31,599 nucleotides of DNA from a virus, in the IMG/VR virus record IMGVR_UViG_3300027969_002464, positions 1 to 31,599 of that record; one strand, 5' to 3'. This document shows positions 12,903-30,426 of the stretch, one piece after another. The notes under the pieces are model-generated. The model was not told the DNA's origin, ran no database searches, and worked only from the letters and a program-made list of their open reading frames with translations. Each line of letters opens with the position of its first letter. Position 1 is the first letter of the stretch. A program made the translations under genes and the position numbers.

Positions 12903-13087
12903 TTAATTTTAAGCCAAATACGTTCATGAATATAATAGTCGATACTTAAAAGAATATGTAGTGCTGTAGCAAACCCTGTAGCACTACCGATATCTCCAGT
13001 AAACAAATATGTCCAACCAATAGTAAACAGCCATGCAGTTATTCTATAAGTTAACATCCTTACTAGAGTTCTTTTTTTGGTCTCCAT
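12887..13087 (-). CDS. DUF2061 small membrane protein
   Basis: 66 aa from the ATG at 13087, whose TGATG junction overlaps the queE stop; GGGGA lies a few nt upstream. The pattern METKKRTLVRMLTYRITAWL, a hydrophobic stretch (FTIGWTYLFTGDIGSATGFA), then YYIHERIW and a final KWG is the DUF2061 signature, here with about two membrane segments. Function of the family is unknown. Its place between queE and an oxygenase gives no clear hint. Confidence 0.8.
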   Translation of the reverse strand: METKKRTLVRMLTYRITAWLFTIGWTYLFTGDIGSATGFATALHILLSIDYYIHERIWLKIKWGRI

Positions 13088-13941
13088 CAAGTTCCCCATT
13101 CGTTCTTGAAGAGTGGCACTTGTAGTCGATCACTGTACCGCCAGCCTTTTCGCATTGCCATTTCTGCCACTGCACGATTGTTAAGGGTATACACCCGCTC
13201 AACACCACCAACAGGCATAATATACACAGGACCTGTAAACCCTGCCGCACGATATTCCTCAACAGCTCGTTCAGCATCTTTAAGGTCCTCCTCTGTTGCT
13301 ACTACAAACTTCAAATACACATACCCGTAATTTTCATAATCACACACTACTTCTGGTTTGATAGCATCATCCCACGGCTCGCCTGAGCAAGGAAGTTTAG
13401 CACTTACACTAAATGTGATCTCACGTTGAAAGTCTAAATTAGGCATTTGCCATTGGATTAGATAGTCTTTAAATCCTTTTGTTAACCGCATTGTACCGTT
13501 AGTTTCAAAAGTGATTTCTTTAAGACTTTGCATCCTAGGATGACTTAGTAAGTCTGGATAAGCACGTTGCCAACCTAGCAAAGGCTCACCGCCTGTAATA
13601 ACAAGATGTTCATCCTGCCATTCTCCGTTCGGTAGCATTTCCATAATGCGTTCTACGATCCCATCAGTCTCAACTAACGGGCTAAGATCTTTAAAGCGAA
13701 CATCCCAACTAGCGTAACTATCACAACCAGTTGACACTAGTGGGAGCTCATTATAATCTTTAAACTCTAAAATTCTTTCTGCAATAGCTTCACGTTCATC
13801 GGACAGTTCTCCACGTGGCATACCAAAACCTTGACAGGTAAAGTTACAACCAAATGTGCGTAGAAACACACTCGGGACCCCCATGTAGCGTCCTTCTCCT
13901 TGGATACTGTAAAACAGTTCTGCTAATTTAATCTTACTCAT
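13087..13941 (-). CDS. queE: QueE-like 7-carboxy-7-deazaguanine synthase (radical SAM)
   Basis: 284 aa. The start MSKIKLAELFYSIQGEGRYM and GVPSVFLRTFGC match the QueE N-terminus, ITGGEPLLGW (about 114-123) is the glycine-rich SAM-binding motif and ETNGT follows. QueE turns 6-carboxytetrahydropterin into CDG with SAM and a 4Fe-4S cluster. The cluster motif is unusual: C32-x3-C36 is followed by about 36 residues before the third Cys, C73 in TGCDSYASW, instead of the usual x2. With folE and the QueD-like gene it would supply CDG for DNA modification by the DpdA-like enzyme. Coupled by overlaps to both neighbours. Confidence 0.87.
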   Translation of the reverse strand: MSKIKLAELFYSIQGEGRYMGVPSVFLRTFGCNFTCQGFGMPRGELSDEREAIAERILEFKDYNELPLVSTGCDSYASWDVRFKDLSPLVETDGIVERIMEMLPNGEWQDEHLVITGGEPLLGWQRAYPDLLSHPRMQSLKEITFETNGTMRLTKGFKDYLIQWQMPNLDFQREITFSVSAKLPCSGEPWDDAIKPEVVCDYENYGYVYLKFVVATEEDLKDAERAVEEYRAAGFTGPVYIMPVGGVERVYTLNNRAVAEMAMRKGWRYSDRLQVPLFKNEWGT

Positions 13942-19533: not shown

Positions 19534-20325
19534 TTATCGTGGCGCAAACTCTTGTTGCAGTTTAATGTTATCAAAGAATTCTTTCTTCGTGTTACCGTCA
19601 GTATTGAATGCACCTTTTAATACTGTAGTCTGCGTAAGACTAGAGTGCGCCATAATGCCTCTGTTCTCACAGCAACCGTGTACTGCTTGTACATATACTG
19701 CTACATTTTCTGAGTCTGTTGCTTTTTGGATTTCCCTAGCAATGTCATTACAAAGTTCCTCCTGGAGAGTACCTCGACGGGCACACCACTGAGCGATCCT
19801 TGTATACTTGCTAAGTCCGATGAGTTTCTGAGCCGCAATAATACCAATATAAGCAACGCCAGTAACGGGTTGGTGATGATGGCTACACATACTGCGAAGC
19901 TCACTGCGGACAACCAACATACCTTCGTAACGGTCCTCTGAATCATTTGGGAAACAAGTTGCGTCTGGTGCTGGTTCATATCTTCCTGCCATTATTTCAT
20001 TAAAGTACATTTTAGCCAGTCGGCGGGCTGTACCTTTGCTGTTAGGATCATTCTCACGATCAATTAACAGCGTGTCTAATACTTTTTCGAATGCTTCTGT
20101 TGCTTCGTTGATTAGGATTTCTTTATCAGTTTCGCTAACATAGTCACTGATGTTGTCACCTGCCCAAAAACGTTTCTTATCACGTTTCATCTTAAAGCGA
20201 ATAGCATCGCCTAGGTAACCTTCTTCATAGCCCTTGTCAGACATTGCATCTGCGGCTTTTACAATAGCATCTTCGTATCCTGGATGATACGGTGCTTCTT
20301 CTACTAGTTTTTTACTGTCTGTCAA
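19534..20325 (-). CDS. folE: GTP cyclohydrolase I (FolE)
   Basis: 263 aa; N-terminal about 70 residues extend beyond the usual core. Core motifs: SMCSHHHQPVTGVAYIGI (zinc C147 and catalytic His), KLIGLSKYTRI, CARRGTLQEELCNDIA and HGCCENRGIMA (H216, C218 as second zinc Cys). It makes 7,8-dihydroneopterin triphosphate from GTP, the first step toward folate or 7-deazaguanine. With QueD-like and QueE proteins also encoded here, the deazaguanine route is the likely purpose. The start codon appears to be TTG, with GGAG 9 nt before it; a promoter lies upstream at 20368-20397. Confidence 0.92.
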   Translation of the reverse strand: MTDSKKLVEEAPYHPGYEDAIVKAADAMSDKGYEEGYLGDAIRFKMKRDKKRFWAGDNISDYVSETDKEILINEATEAFEKVLDTLLIDRENDPNSKGTARRLAKMYFNEIMAGRYEPAPDATCFPNDSEDRYEGMLVVRSELRSMCSHHHQPVTGVAYIGIIAAQKLIGLSKYTRIAQWCARRGTLQEELCNDIAREIQKATDSENVAVYVQAVHGCCENRGIMAHSSLTQTTVLKGAFNTDGNTKKEFFDNIKLQQEFAPR

Positions 20326-24294: not shown

Positions 24295-25911
24295 TTAAAT
24301 TTTTAATTCTTCTTCCAATGCACGTAACTCGTCATCGTCCGGATTAGCAAAGTCAATTTCAGTTTGTTGCTTTTGTTCGACTTCAAACAACGAACTAAAC
24401 GTGTTTTGTGCAGGACCGCCTTGTAAGCGAGCACCTTCTAAGCTACGCAAGAACGGTAGTGCAGATTCAATTAATTCAAATGCTTCTACTTTGGATTTAG
24501 TTTCAAACAGTTCTTCGATAAAAGTAGCAAAGTAAAGAATTCTACGTGGAACCCAATCGCTAAACTCTTTTTCTTTCTTACCTTCAATACCCCAACTTCT
24601 CCAAGTGGGTTTAAACCTAGCAATTTCAATATCCATTAATTGTTGAGCACGTTGTACAGCAACAATATGACATTCAACATTATGACCCATCATTAGAGCG
24701 TAGGCAAAACTATCCCAACTTGTTTTATTTGGAATCTTATCAAGTTTGTTTTTACGGGGAACAACATGATAGTGTTCTGGATTCAAATGATCAAACTTTT
24801 CGCCATTTAATTCTGTATCAGTCTTGCGTTCACCTAAATCATAGTACGCAATATCTGACATTGTTAAGCGTCGACCGGTTTCTGATTCGAATGGGAATGG
24901 GATGTCGCTTCCTGCAAGTGATTTGTTATCTGGTGCTTTGTCCATAATAACCGACCAACGTTTGTTGGTGTGTTGGGCGTTTGTGTAGACAAGTCCGTGC
25001 GCTGTTGCGATAAACGGTGAGGCGCAATCAAAAGAGATGGTAAGTTCTTCATTAATATGTTTCCTAAGTTGTCGTTGAATAAGAGTCAAATAACATGACC
25101 AGTCTAACTGTGCAGTACCCAAGAAGTGCATCCAGTTTTTGCCCTTCAGCAAACCATCTTCACGCATAGTCATTAGACGTTTAAGCGTGATATCCATTTT
25201 ACACATGTTGGCTCCGCCCATGGCCCAACCTTCGGCTTCCTTACCAGCATACTTGCCTTTAGGATCACTAAACTCTTTTACACCCTGATACCATTTTTCA
25301 GCAGTATCCCAATCGCCACCCTGTAGCACATTAAGCCATTTAGTTTGACCTAGGCGATTTTGTAAAAAATAATCATTATTAAATCGTGTCTTATCTAAAC
25401 AGTCGTCAAATGTTTTTAATCCAGTCTTTGGACTATGAATATGATCACATGCCCATGTCGGAACGTCTAGCATCATTGACCAGTCAGCAGTCATCTCTAA
25501 CCATTCGAGAATCTTTTGACGAGTGGCGTTTGCGGCTTTCCCTTCAAAGTCTAACCAATCAAACTTAAGAACACCCTTACCAATCTGGTATCCGCCCGAG
25601 TCGCCTACAATAACAGTTTTGCCACGTTCACGCTGTTGCACCATTGATTCTTGATCAATTGCTTTTTCTAAATCAAGTTGTGCATGACCTGCTGAATACA
25701 AAGCGTATCTATATGTAAAGTATCCTTCTTCTTCGTTTAAGAAGTTCATACCTTCAATTCCGCGATCAAATCCTTTAGGAACACGATCAGGAGAAACAAA
25801 TTCACCTAGTCTTTGCTTTGAAATATAGTTTTCGTAAAACGAACTGATAGCAGGTAGATAAACTGCATAGTCCTTTTGTAATGGTGTTAAATTAAGTGGC
25901 GGCTTTTTCAT
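24295..25911 (-). CDS. dpdA: DpdA-like 7-deazaguanine transglycosylase (TGT superfamily)
   Basis: 538 aa. TGT-barrel motifs occur in the right order: VGDSGGYQIGKG with D104, LDVPTWACD (about 148-156), LNVLQGGDWDTAEKW (193-207), EGWAMGGANMCK (227-238; TGT has a GGLxxGE here), MHFLGTAQLDW (261-271), and ISFDCASPFIATAHG with D295 as the expected nucleophile. The CxCxxC zinc motif of bacterial tRNA TGTs is not seen. DpdA proteins exchange guanine for a 7-deazaguanine in DNA, protecting phage DNA from host nucleases; folE, QueD-like and queE genes in the window would supply the base. A tRNA target cannot be excluded. AAGGAAC precedes the start. Confidence 0.8.
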   Translation of the reverse strand: MKKPPLNLTPLQKDYAVYLPAISSFYENYISKQRLGEFVSPDRVPKGFDRGIEGMNFLNEEEGYFTYRYALYSAGHAQLDLEKAIDQESMVQQRERGKTVIVGDSGGYQIGKGVLKFDWLDFEGKAANATRQKILEWLEMTADWSMMLDVPTWACDHIHSPKTGLKTFDDCLDKTRFNNDYFLQNRLGQTKWLNVLQGGDWDTAEKWYQGVKEFSDPKGKYAGKEAEGWAMGGANMCKMDITLKRLMTMREDGLLKGKNWMHFLGTAQLDWSCYLTLIQRQLRKHINEELTISFDCASPFIATAHGLVYTNAQHTNKRWSVIMDKAPDNKSLAGSDIPFPFESETGRRLTMSDIAYYDLGERKTDTELNGEKFDHLNPEHYHVVPRKNKLDKIPNKTSWDSFAYALMMGHNVECHIVAVQRAQQLMDIEIARFKPTWRSWGIEGKKEKEFSDWVPRRILYFATFIEELFETKSKVEAFELIESALPFLRSLEGARLQGGPAQNTFSSLFEVEQKQQTEIDFANPDDDELRALEEELKI

Positions 25912-27081: not shown

Positions 27082-29751
27082 TTATTCAAAAGTGAACAAA
27101 TTACCAAATGTGTTATTTTGTGTGGTTGAGCTTAAATCCCATTCCAGCACTCCGATAAGATTTTCCAGCTTGTTATTAATAATCGTAGTTTCCATCTCAC
27201 TATGATCAAATGGTAGTTCCTGGAACCATTTTGGTAAACGTAGTTCATCTACTGGATACGCTACACTAGTATACCCCAGCGGATTATCTTTTACCTTACA
27301 AACAATAACTTTCATGCCGTCAACAATTCCCATTGAGTATTTGTCTCCGTTCATGCGTTTTAGTGTATTCCAATTAATACTTGCACGGACATGTCCGGGC
27401 ATGTTTGCTCTACCGGCTTTTGCTTCCTTGGCTTGATAGTCTGTGATGTTATTAGCACGTTTTGGACTACCTTTCTCCCAACCGGGGCGAGCCTTAAACT
27501 CTGTTCGGAATTCGCCGATACGGTCTAGTATTTCTGTTTCTTGACTACCGTTAAGTACTTTGGTTAGGATCTCTTCTAAAAACTTTTGCATAAATTCCGG
27601 AGTATCACTACGTTTAAGATCTAAACCCATAGCCTTAATCTTACCTGGCTTGCCGTCTACGTCTGCACGTTTATTTTCTTTATCGTAATACAATACAGCA
27701 TAGCGTTTTTTAGTAATAAACAAACCTTTGGTAGCAACAAGTTCGCGGCCTGCTTTAATAACTTCGCCACGAGATTTCGGACAATGAAAGCTATCTAACA
27801 TAAATGTTGGGAACGTAGCATTTACATTATCGGCAATTTGGTTGTATAACTGAACAACTGTTTCTTTATCCCAAGGTAGCCGACCTTTTTCAATGTCAGT
27901 TTTTAATGTACCATACGCTGAAAAGTACGCAGAGTCAGTATCACCGTAAATAATTGCACGACCACGATAGTCGTATTCGCCAGTAATGATTTCATTAATC
28001 TTTGCGGCCATGTGCCGTGAAATCTGGCGTCCTACAAGTGTTGTCGACTGTCCGATACGTTTATCAAAGAACCTGCAACCAGCATTAAGAATAGCACCAT
28101 ACAAACTGTTCAAGTTAATCTTCTTAACCAATTGACGTTTGTCCCAGTATTCTTCTTCGATCTTATTACCTGCTTCAATCGCTTCTTTGAGCTTTTTCTG
28201 CATGTCTTTGCGTTCACTATACCAACGCTTTAACAAGCCGGGAATAATACCTTCTGTTTCGTAAGTAAAGATTGTGCCGTTAGCACTAAGCATCCAGGGT
28301 TGATTACTTTCATAAATCATTTCGTAGATCTGAGCACCACTTAGTACATCGACGTCTCCGGATTCCCATTCAACAGTAATGTCGTGTGCTTTGTCCTTGT
28401 CCATAACAAATTCGTATTCGTTACTGCCAAACTTACCTTCCCATGCCGCGGCAAAACTCGAACCTTTGGCTATCTTAGCATCAATCTCTGCTTGTGTGTA
28501 ATCTTGACGCAACTGTCCAACAATAGTCTCCGGACCCATGTTAAGCGCACGAATCGCAGATGGATATAGCGAGTTAATGTCAACTGATCCAATCCAATCA
28601 TGGAGACCCTTCTTTGGATATGCAACATAAGCACCTGCGGCCTGTGTATCACCTAATTCGTCTTTGCGTGTGCGACTAGGAACAATCATCCCGCGATGAT
28701 GTGCTTCATTTACAATCGCTTGTTCTGTTACAGCCACAGCACCCATTGTAGTCTGTAGCAATACAGTACATTCATGTGCCAGTGTGTTAGCAAGATCAAT
28801 AAACTTTAATTTTTTATCAAGTTTATCGAGTAGCGCACAGTCTTGTCTGTTGTATTCAATAAACTTACGGAAGTCATTGTTATACAGTTGATCAAGTGTG
28901 CCTTCATAAACTGTTTTACTTTCTCCTACTTCCATTTCTCCGATAGCATCAAGTCGATAGGTATGTCGTTCTTCATAGGTATATTTGCGGTACAGTTCGA
29001 GACTATCCAAATGAACGCGACCAGCAAAATCATAAGTAACAGCCTGCTTTCCATATTTTTCGTACTCCCGTTTTCTAGGCATTTGATCCCACAAGCAGAA
29101 TCTGCGAGTATCTTCTTTACTCAAAACTTTAGTAACACGGTTAACAGTATACGGTACGTCAAATCCCTCGCTATTCCATCCGCTGATAATATCTGCATCT
29201 TCAATTAGTTTAAGGAAAGTATCAAGCATCTCTGCTTCACTTTCAAACAGATGCGTGTTGGGAAATTCTTTAACTTGCTCTACTGCTTGCTCCATTGTAA
29301 GAGTCTTTGGAGGAATAGCAAGACATATAAGTGTATCTAACCATTGCAGGTGGACTGCGATTGCAGTAATTGGCATGAACGCATCTTCAGGCGATGCATA
29401 ACCACGCTCTGGATCAAAGTCCACCTCAATATCGAAAAATGCTACGTGCAATTTAGGTGCATCCTTACCTAAGTAGTTTTCTTCTAGTACACGGAAGCTG
29501 GCGTTGATATCGCTTTCGAATAATTTGTGACTTGAGTGGATTTTTTGTTCTTTAACAAAATCTTTGAAAGTTTTACAAGTAACTTTGCTAAGTGGATCAC
29601 CGTAAATGCTACGGTACTTGCCTTTGTTATCTGGATAGTAAAACTGATATTTGGCTGGGTAATCAATAAAGATTCTACCCTTTTTTGGATCACGCTCAAC
29701 AACTCTGACACGGTCATTGTCACGATCCCAGATGGCATCAATATAACTCAT
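27082..29751 (-). CDS. 43: DNA polymerase, family B (T4 gp43-like)
   Basis: 889 aa, close to T4 gp43 (898). The 3'-5' exonuclease has FFDIEVD (D107, E109), ISGWNSEGFDVPY (189-201) and EYNRQDCALLDKL (299-311). The polymerase has DINSLYPSAI (391-400, motif A), KKINLNSLYGAILN (543-556, motif B) and YGDTDSAYF (602-610, motif C). The last residues, NTFGNLFTFE, look like the clamp-binding peptide seen at gp43 C-termini (RB69 type LFDMF). No intein or split is seen. The leader carries two hairpins overlapping or preceding the AAGGAG ribosome site. Confidence 0.97.
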   Translation of the reverse strand: MSYIDAIWDRDNDRVRVVERDPKKGRIFIDYPAKYQFYYPDNKGKYRSIYGDPLSKVTCKTFKDFVKEQKIHSSHKLFESDINASFRVLEENYLGKDAPKLHVAFFDIEVDFDPERGYASPEDAFMPITAIAVHLQWLDTLICLAIPPKTLTMEQAVEQVKEFPNTHLFESEAEMLDTFLKLIEDADIISGWNSEGFDVPYTVNRVTKVLSKEDTRRFCLWDQMPRKREYEKYGKQAVTYDFAGRVHLDSLELYRKYTYEERHTYRLDAIGEMEVGESKTVYEGTLDQLYNNDFRKFIEYNRQDCALLDKLDKKLKFIDLANTLAHECTVLLQTTMGAVAVTEQAIVNEAHHRGMIVPSRTRKDELGDTQAAGAYVAYPKKGLHDWIGSVDINSLYPSAIRALNMGPETIVGQLRQDYTQAEIDAKIAKGSSFAAAWEGKFGSNEYEFVMDKDKAHDITVEWESGDVDVLSGAQIYEMIYESNQPWMLSANGTIFTYETEGIIPGLLKRWYSERKDMQKKLKEAIEAGNKIEEEYWDKRQLVKKINLNSLYGAILNAGCRFFDKRIGQSTTLVGRQISRHMAAKINEIITGEYDYRGRAIIYGDTDSAYFSAYGTLKTDIEKGRLPWDKETVVQLYNQIADNVNATFPTFMLDSFHCPKSRGEVIKAGRELVATKGLFITKKRYAVLYYDKENKRADVDGKPGKIKAMGLDLKRSDTPEFMQKFLEEILTKVLNGSQETEILDRIGEFRTEFKARPGWEKGSPKRANNITDYQAKEAKAGRANMPGHVRASINWNTLKRMNGDKYSMGIVDGMKVIVCKVKDNPLGYTSVAYPVDELRLPKWFQELPFDHSEMETTIINNKLENLIGVLEWDLSSTTQNNTFGNLFTFE

Positions 29752-29755
29752 AATT

Positions 29756-29806
29756 CTCCTTACCGTTTATGGCCGGCAACCTTCATTGTGCGATTTATGG
29801 CTCGCA
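29756..29806 (-). promoter_or_regulatory. 43: Tandem identical-loop hairpins, likely translational operator of polymerase
   Basis: On the - strand RNA, hairpin A (29806-29789) is UGCGA, loop GCCAUAAA, UCGCA. Hairpin B (29779-29760) is UUGCCG, the same loop, CGGUAA, with a G-U pair. They are separated by 9 nt. The 3' arm of B overlaps the first bases of the AAGGAG ribosome site (29761-29756), 4 nt from ATG. T4 gp43 represses its own translation by binding a hairpin with a 5-bp stem and 8-nt loop beside its ribosome site; size and place match, while the loop sequence differs and the unit is doubled. Confidence 0.65.
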
Positions 29807-29828
29807 GAACCTTTCTCAATAATATTTA

Positions 29829-30125
29829 TTACGCATTAACTAACATGCGAACAAGACCGATAGTATCGATGGTTGTTAGCAAGATGTAGTTAGCCAGCAT
29901 ACCGAATGACTTACGAGTCCAAGAAGCCCACGCATACATAGCACAGCCACTAATCCAGATAGGATATAGTACAAGAAGAGGAGGATTAGGGACTGTGACT
30001 GCCATTGTGATACTACAGCCAATAGATATAGCCCAAGCAAGGAGCTCAACACAAAAGCGAAATCCGTTGCTATTCCAGTCATCTCTAATCCACTCTAATG
30101 TTGGCTTAAAAAATGTATCAATCAT
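29829..30125 (-). CDS. Small membrane protein of unknown function
   Basis: 98 aa from the ATG at 30125, overlapping the dsbA-like gene by 8 nt. After FFKPTLEWIRDDWNSNGFRF there are about three hydrophobic segments (VELLAWAISIGCSITMAV; VLYPIWISGCAMYAWA; MLANYILLTTIDTIGLV). No signal-cleavage site. Such proteins occur in T4-like phages and bacteria without known function. An AATAAATA motif just after its stop may be a late-type promoter for polymerase. Confidence 0.7.
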   Translation of the reverse strand: MIDTFFKPTLEWIRDDWNSNGFRFCVELLAWAISIGCSITMAVTVPNPPLLVLYPIWISGCAMYAWASWTRKSFGMLANYILLTTIDTIGLVRMLVNA

Positions 30126-30426
30126 TATCGCCTGAACGGTTTGGATTTTGTGCGGCATAGTCGCTATCTCGAATTGCATGACCGCTAATGTCAACGATAG
30201 TTTCTAAGTCATCGAACTCAGTAAACACTCGTTCCCAATCACCTTTCTGGGCAATCTTAATTGCCTTTTTAATGATGCTTGGTTTTACTTCGAGTTCTTC
30301 CGCGACAGCTTTAATAGTGTCGTTTAGTCCTTCGTTCAAGTCTTCAATTTCTTGTAAGACAGTTACGCCTTCAGAAATAAGTTGTTTGATTTTTGCTTGT
30401 TCCGGTGCACCGTATGCTTTACTCAT
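30118..30426 (-). CDS. dsbA: DsbA-like double-stranded DNA-binding protein
   Basis: 102 aa. IKQLISEGVTVLQEIEDLNE, GLNDTIKAVAEELEVKPSII, KKAIKIAQKGDWERVFTEFD and LETIVDI match the small helical DsbA-type proteins of T4-like phages (T4 DsbA binds late promoters and helps late transcription). The first 70 residues are helical and mostly basic in the second helix. AGGAG precedes the start. The promoter at 30447-30475 lies inside an inverted repeat. Confidence 0.75.
   Translation of the reverse strand: MSKAYGAPEQAKIKQLISEGVTVLQEIEDLNEGLNDTIKAVAEELEVKPSIIKKAIKIAQKGDWERVFTEFDDLETIVDISGHAIRDSDYAAQNPNRSGDND

Follow-up and report, generated by a model that had tools for sequence, protein, structure and literature searches.

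Tandem pseudoknots in the DNA polymerase leader of uncultured T4-related phages, a probable autogenous operator

The DNA polymerases (gp43) of phages T4 and RB69 repress their own mRNA via an RNA hairpin plus the ribosome binding site, and AA/AC bases of the hairpin loop matter for this repression (PMC3014915). The gene 43 operator is a single hairpin with a UAAC-type loop (UAAA in RB49), and no evidence of pseudoknot formation has been reported for it (PMC3014915). In a 2010 review, the pseudoknot of gene 32 was regarded as perhaps the sole viral pseudoknot serving translational autoregulation (PMC3014915). Here we describe two consecutive H-type pseudoknots in the leader of polB, the polymerase gene in IMG/VR virus record IMGVR_UViG_3300027969_002464, together with their conservation among related phages and their probable role as an operator. 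The whole 31.6-kb record is referred to below as the window; records in IMG/VR are fragments.

The polB gene of the window (27082 to 29751, minus strand; PF00136, PF03104, and phrog_262) encodes a T4 gp43-like family B DNA polymerase of 889 amino acids, which shares 27.6% identity with T4 gp43 over 704 positions. This polymerase is the presumed repressor, and the polB mRNA is the presumed target. On the minus strand, to which all leader features given here belong, the leader reads ...AATAAATATTATT GAGAAA GGU UC UGCGA GCC AUAAA UCGCA CAAUGAA GGU U GCCG GCC AUAAA CGGU AAGGAG AAUU AUG. A first-pass annotation, made from the letters of the window, had described two hairpins with an identical 8-nt loop and stems of 5 and 6 bp. 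Both are found as described, namely UGCGA-GCCAUAAA-UCGCA (29806 to 29789, 5 bp) and, 28 nt from it, UUGCCG-GCCAUAAA-CGGUAA (29779 to 29760, 6 bp), and both appear in the predicted fold of the leader; the plus-strand fold of the region shows nothing. The second hairpin also reaches the ribosome site, as had been stated, extending into the Shine-Dalgarno (SD) sequence AGGAG of polB. What the hairpin description lacks is a conserved GGU located 5′ of each hairpin (29811 to 29809 and 29781 to 29779), outside the coordinates annotated. Because of this GGU, each hairpin becomes a pseudoknot. Thus, both stems are real, while the units to which they belong are H-type pseudoknots.

Each unit follows the grammar GGY, 1 to 3 nt, S2 stem, RCY, NNAAN, S2 stem, in which the upstream GGY pairs with RCY, the three bases that open the loop (GCC in GCCAUAAA). 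GGY precedes every unit, 5 to 8 nt before the loop. In the leaders of relatives, the H-type order S1-L1-S2-S1′-L3-S2′ is found with both helices formed. Stem 1 (S1) has 3 bp and stem 2 (S2) has 4 to 7 bp; loop 1 (L1) has 1 to 3 nt and the A-rich loop 3 (L3) has 5 to 6 nt, and S2 and S1′ are directly contiguous, with zero nucleotides between them. S1 and L3 are conserved in sequence, whereas S2 is constrained for pairing alone. As for the loop, the GCCAUAAA described earlier represents one version of RCYNNAAN.

In the window, unit 1 (GGU-UC-UGCGA-GCC-AUAAA-UCGCA, 29789 to 29811), whose helices both covary across relatives, is composed of the S1 5′ strand GGU (29809 to 29811), the S2 5′ strand UGCGA (29802 to 29806), the S1 3′ strand GCC (29799 to 29801), which forms the first three bases of the annotated loop, L3 AUAAA (29794 to 29798), and the S2 3′ strand UCGCA (29793 to 29789). 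In an alignment of relatives, the two middle A residues of L3 (NNAAN) are nearly invariant; judging by H-type geometry, L3 would occupy the minor groove of S1. The linker CAAUGAA (29782 to 29788), about 5 to 9 nt long in the parsed leaders of relatives, leads to the SD-proximal unit 2 (GGU-U-GCCG-GCC-AUAAA-CGGU, 29762 to 29781), which marine relatives with a single unit have retained (see below). The outer two pairs of the annotated second stem (U29779 and U29778 with A29760 and A29761) compete with S1 and L1. The SD sequence AAGGAG (29756 to 29761, with AGGAG at 29760 to 29756) abuts unit 2. In nearly all relatives, an SD-like motif begins 0 to 4 nt past the inner 4 bp of unit 2 S2, and the start codon lies 9 to 19 nt past this stem.

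Simple statistics of the window leader are unremarkable. The loop 8-mer by itself is ordinary (two copies against 1.3 expected in a plain 8-mer count, not significant), as is the folding energy (z = -0.49), and therefore the case must rest on comparison. The unusual feature is the presence of two adjacent loop copies, each closed by its own stem. The full grammar has a background of about 8 matches per 200 kb on both strands, from which roughly 0.001 adjacent unit pairs are estimated to occur by chance in the window.

Relatives were gathered by scanning IMG/VR with the polymerase and its relatives, and 188 non-redundant leaders were collected; these counts refer to non-redundant sequences, not to independent phages. 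According to our parser, both units stand directly before polB in 178 of the 188 leaders, with the sequences of the stems changing and their pairing kept. The earlier view that the stems covary around a conserved loop, a sign of selected RNA structure, is upheld by this comparison, in which the tandem layout is retained, and at the level of sequence the conservation among polB leaders confirms that the tandem structure is real. Three further leaders (L129, L254, and L130) were first considered as losses; this reading was rejected because the complete tandem element precedes a small open reading frame (ORF) inserted as the first gene. In two of these three cases (L129 and L254), the stop codon of the inserted ORF overlaps the polB start as ATGA. 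Since the element sits before the inserted ORF and polB is coupled to it, the element tracks the head of the transcript and not the start codon. The inserted ORF, located between the element and polB (L129, minus strand; L254, 1330 to 1504; L130, 6956 to 7109), encodes a Cys-containing peptide of 50 to 57 amino acids (e.g., MKELEFVPCDDCPNPEGCLTRC...). Among the other seven exceptions, L332 has a single unit, and none is present in L072 (72% identity), L330, L334, or the isolates Phosso, Atu_ph07, and 121Q. The parser misread L284, L310, L329, L066, and L130 in its first pass and L015, L066, and L246 in its second.

Compensatory changes support both helices. In a 72-sequence alignment covering S2 of both units and S1 of unit 1, 89.6% of the cells are paired, the covariation score is 0.578, and 12 of the 13 tested pairs show two-sided changes. 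As a set, the 13 pairs beat all 500 shuffles, and slid controls collapse; RNAalifold predicts the same two S2 stems without hints. When 88 distinct unit 1 sequences are aligned without gaps, S1 pairs in 264 of 264 cells and S2 in 94.8%. Pair 1 of S1 is either G-C or A-U, without mixed combinations. Mapped onto the polymerase tree, this pair requires four double changes in the first data set and ten in the enlarged set; all ten are concordant, nine of them on well-supported branches (sign test, p = 0.004). We also scanned IMG/VR prospectively for units with the loop GCU while leaving the partner base open, a set that is one-sided by design. All 42 polB-leader matches (16 distinct) carry the predicted A, and four other matches lack a second unit. 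Pair 3 of S1 is U.G, C-G, or U-A, with a single convincing exception (U-U in L040). The U.G form is present in about 82 to 97% of leaders, and pair 4 of unit 2 is often G.U. Because U.G and G.U pair in the sense RNA but would mismatch in DNA and in the opposite strand, it is the mRNA that is under selection. Moreover, unit 1 compensates while unit 2 keeps GGU/GCC, and therefore the pairing takes place within a unit and not between units.

The element is specific for polB. Searched with a covariance model built from the tandem element, 28 of the 30 records examined first gave one strong match each (E < 1e-12), other matches being weak, and the remaining 2 gave no strong match; each of five further relatives of the window group (5/5) also yielded one strong match. 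In four whole contigs of 164 to 238 kb, the combination of grammar, SD, start codon, and GCC loop exists solely at polB, and the grammar matches away from polB are mostly without a ribosome site. A regulon of the motif was considered and rejected: outside polB, matches to the strict grammar are about as frequent as in shuffled sequence in three genomes and roughly twice as frequent in one. No significant match to the covariance model was found in T4, RB69, RB49, Phosso, or 121Q, and Atu_ph07 shows only weak matches, away from polB. No Rfam 15 family matched the window leader, even with the cutoff relaxed to E ≤ 10, and relatives gave no match at the gathering threshold. The region contains no transfer RNA or transfer-messenger RNA detectable by search, and the only BLASTN matches of the leader in isolate phages were chance matches of 22 nt.

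In its location, the element resembles the T4/RB69 gene 43 operator: it is a small leader RNA structure near the ribosome site of a gene for a homologous family B polymerase. The dimensions of stem and loop (about 5 bp and 8 nt in T4) and the A-rich loop bases are likewise similar. The architecture differs. Compared with the T4 and RB69 leaders, polB is preceded not by a single UAAC-type hairpin without a pseudoknot but by two H-type pseudoknots with an RCYNNAAN loop and a required upstream GGY, abutting the SD. The element would work like the gene 43 operator, yet it stands outside that RNA family because of these differences in architecture and loop. With the gene 32 operator of T4, T2, and RB69, it shares the H-type pseudoknot, which in that case is proven for autogenous control of a replication protein. 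However, the single pseudoknot of gene 32 stands at a good distance upstream of the AUG, and after it comes an extended, unstructured, UUAAA-rich tract to which gp32 binds cooperatively, whereas here two smaller pseudoknots precede polB only, the second touching the SD (0 to 4 nt after unit 2), and no UUAAA-rich tract is present. No matching element was found in Rfam or in our literature search, which mostly covered papers available without subscription.

The number of units varies among more distant relatives. In marine relatives (67 to 71% identity), 40 of 59 leaders have just one unit, located at the ribosome site, while 6 were scored as having two units (two of those first units are doubtful) and 13 have none. 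In many single-unit marine leaders (e.g., L555, L562, L579, L591, and L609), another short hairpin lies upstream, in place of unit 1; its stems change (GCCC/GGGC, GCTC/GAGC, and GTTC/GAAC) and are followed by AUGUAGA. In relatives at about 66% (L330-like) and 57% (L334-like) identity, polB abuts or overlaps the upstream gene and the element is absent in the leaders listed. The system is thus lost where polB loses its own leader. Since the single-unit form keeps the SD-proximal unit and the no-leader relatives are empty, the SD-proximal unit is the core and unit 1 an add-on.

Taken together, the conservation of the element and its restriction to polB fit autogenous control, and we consider the tandem pseudoknots to be probably a translational operator by which the polymerase represses its own synthesis, acting like that of T4 gene 43. 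Polymerase not engaged on DNA would bind the S1/L3 face of the SD-proximal pseudoknot. The bound unit 2 would be frozen next to or over the ribosome site, blocking initiation, and unit 1 may provide a second site that raises affinity, cooperativity, or the range of response. Polymerase in excess of DNA ends would thus switch off its own production, in the manner of T4 gene 43. Several points weigh against this interpretation. The loop differs from the UAAC loop of T4/RB69, and the S1 covariation rests mainly on pair 1, as the other S1 positions vary little. A riboswitch for a small ligand, or a protein other than the polymerase, would also account for the conserved bases of S1 and L3. Finally, control must be dispensable, because the relatives at about 66% and 57% and a marine minority have neither leader nor element. 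A further possibility, which we regard as rather unlikely, is a new class of phage regulatory RNA, in which a tandem pseudoknot sensing a metabolite or the state of the replisome would set polymerase output, or two pseudoknots would bind two polymerases cooperatively and so read replisome occupancy.

It is unlikely that the same pseudoknots are bound by a phage repressor other than the polymerase, such as the single-strand-binding protein, the clamp, a DsbA-like protein, or another RNA-binding protein. Two genes upstream of polB there is a presumably DsbA-like gene, and T4 gp32 does use a pseudoknot operator (PMC3014915, PMC535899). On the other hand, a regulator acting in trans would have polB as its single target, because the scan of four genomes placed SD-linked copies nowhere else. 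RegA (PF01818) was rejected as the regulator, since it was not detected in 12 relatives, whose records are possibly incomplete; T4, RB69, and RB49 served as positive controls. A quite improbable alternative is a ligand-sensing riboswitch responding, for example, to a nucleotide or to a phage-made 7-deazaguanine intermediate. Guanidine-II riboswitches have tandem small hairpins with identical loops, and preQ1-I riboswitches of the H type are compact pseudoknots with an A-rich third loop; the tandem arrangement of small units with a conserved core of bases is reminiscent of known tandem riboswitches, and the genome carries QueE-like, FolE-like, and TGT/DpdA-looking genes. The conserved bases are different here, however, the Rfam searches mentioned above gave no match, and a single phage gene is the target. 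In addition, a relative of the 57% group (G036) without a leader has QueE and TGT-like genes and no convincing element, and units of about 20 to 24 nt with zero nucleotides between the helices would leave no room for a ligand pocket.

The predicted transcript start, about 6 nt before unit 1, would place the element at the very 5′ end of the mRNA and is in line with a role in 5′-end protection, ribosome standby, or tuning of initiation without a specific binder. The conservation of S1, including its U.G wobble, and of L3 exceeds the needs of stability, and the element is single copy and located at polB, which makes this explanation, too, quite improbable. A signal acting in DNA (a single-strand hairpin, an origin, or a priming site) might be expected next to a replication gene, but the dominant U.G pair of S1 and G.U pair of S2 are mismatches in DNA, and the element always lies on the sense strand immediately before the ribosome site. 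On account of the U.G pairs, we rejected it as having next to no probability.

Autogenous control of a phage polymerase has been described in a small number of T4-like coliphages, in which it relies on one hairpin. The tandem minimal pseudoknots, found in nearly all members of a large group of uncultured phages related to T4, constitute a different architecture. The natural series of two, one, or no units, with the element plainly lost when polB has been fused to the upstream operon, can be used to test how a replicative polymerase recognizes its own mRNA, and pseudoknots of about 20 nt are very small objects for structural work.

Upstream of the element, a profile over the leaders points to a putative T4-late-promoter-like -10 box, AATAAATA (29823 to 29830, minus strand). 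The consensus TAAATA lies at positions -17 to -12 before the GGY of unit 1, and a conserved GAG lies at -6 to -4 (29817 to 29815 in the window); the polB transcript may start at this GAG, about 6 nt before unit 1. Four related genomes, G001, G002, G007, and G010, show an excess of the T4 late-promoter box TATAAATA just ahead of ORFs (e.g., 6 of 8 occurrences, with 0.4 expected), which suggests that phages of this group have late promoters of the T4 type. The protein encoded upstream of polB (30118 to 30426, minus strand) matches phrog_639, a transcriptional regulator family that we take to be that of T4 DsbA.

The minus strand of the window also encodes a QueE-like radical-SAM protein (13087 to 13941), a FolE-like GTP cyclohydrolase I (19534 to 20325), and a 538-amino-acid protein (24295 to 25911) that reads like a TGT/DpdA-type enzyme and has no Pfam or PHROG match. 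The QueE-like gene is present in 16 of 17 records and the TGT-like gene in all 17. The QueE-like, GTP cyclohydrolase I, and TGT-like genes suggest 7-deazaguanine DNA modification. In one record (G012:C1:6722-8329), the TGT-like gene contains one in-frame TAA.
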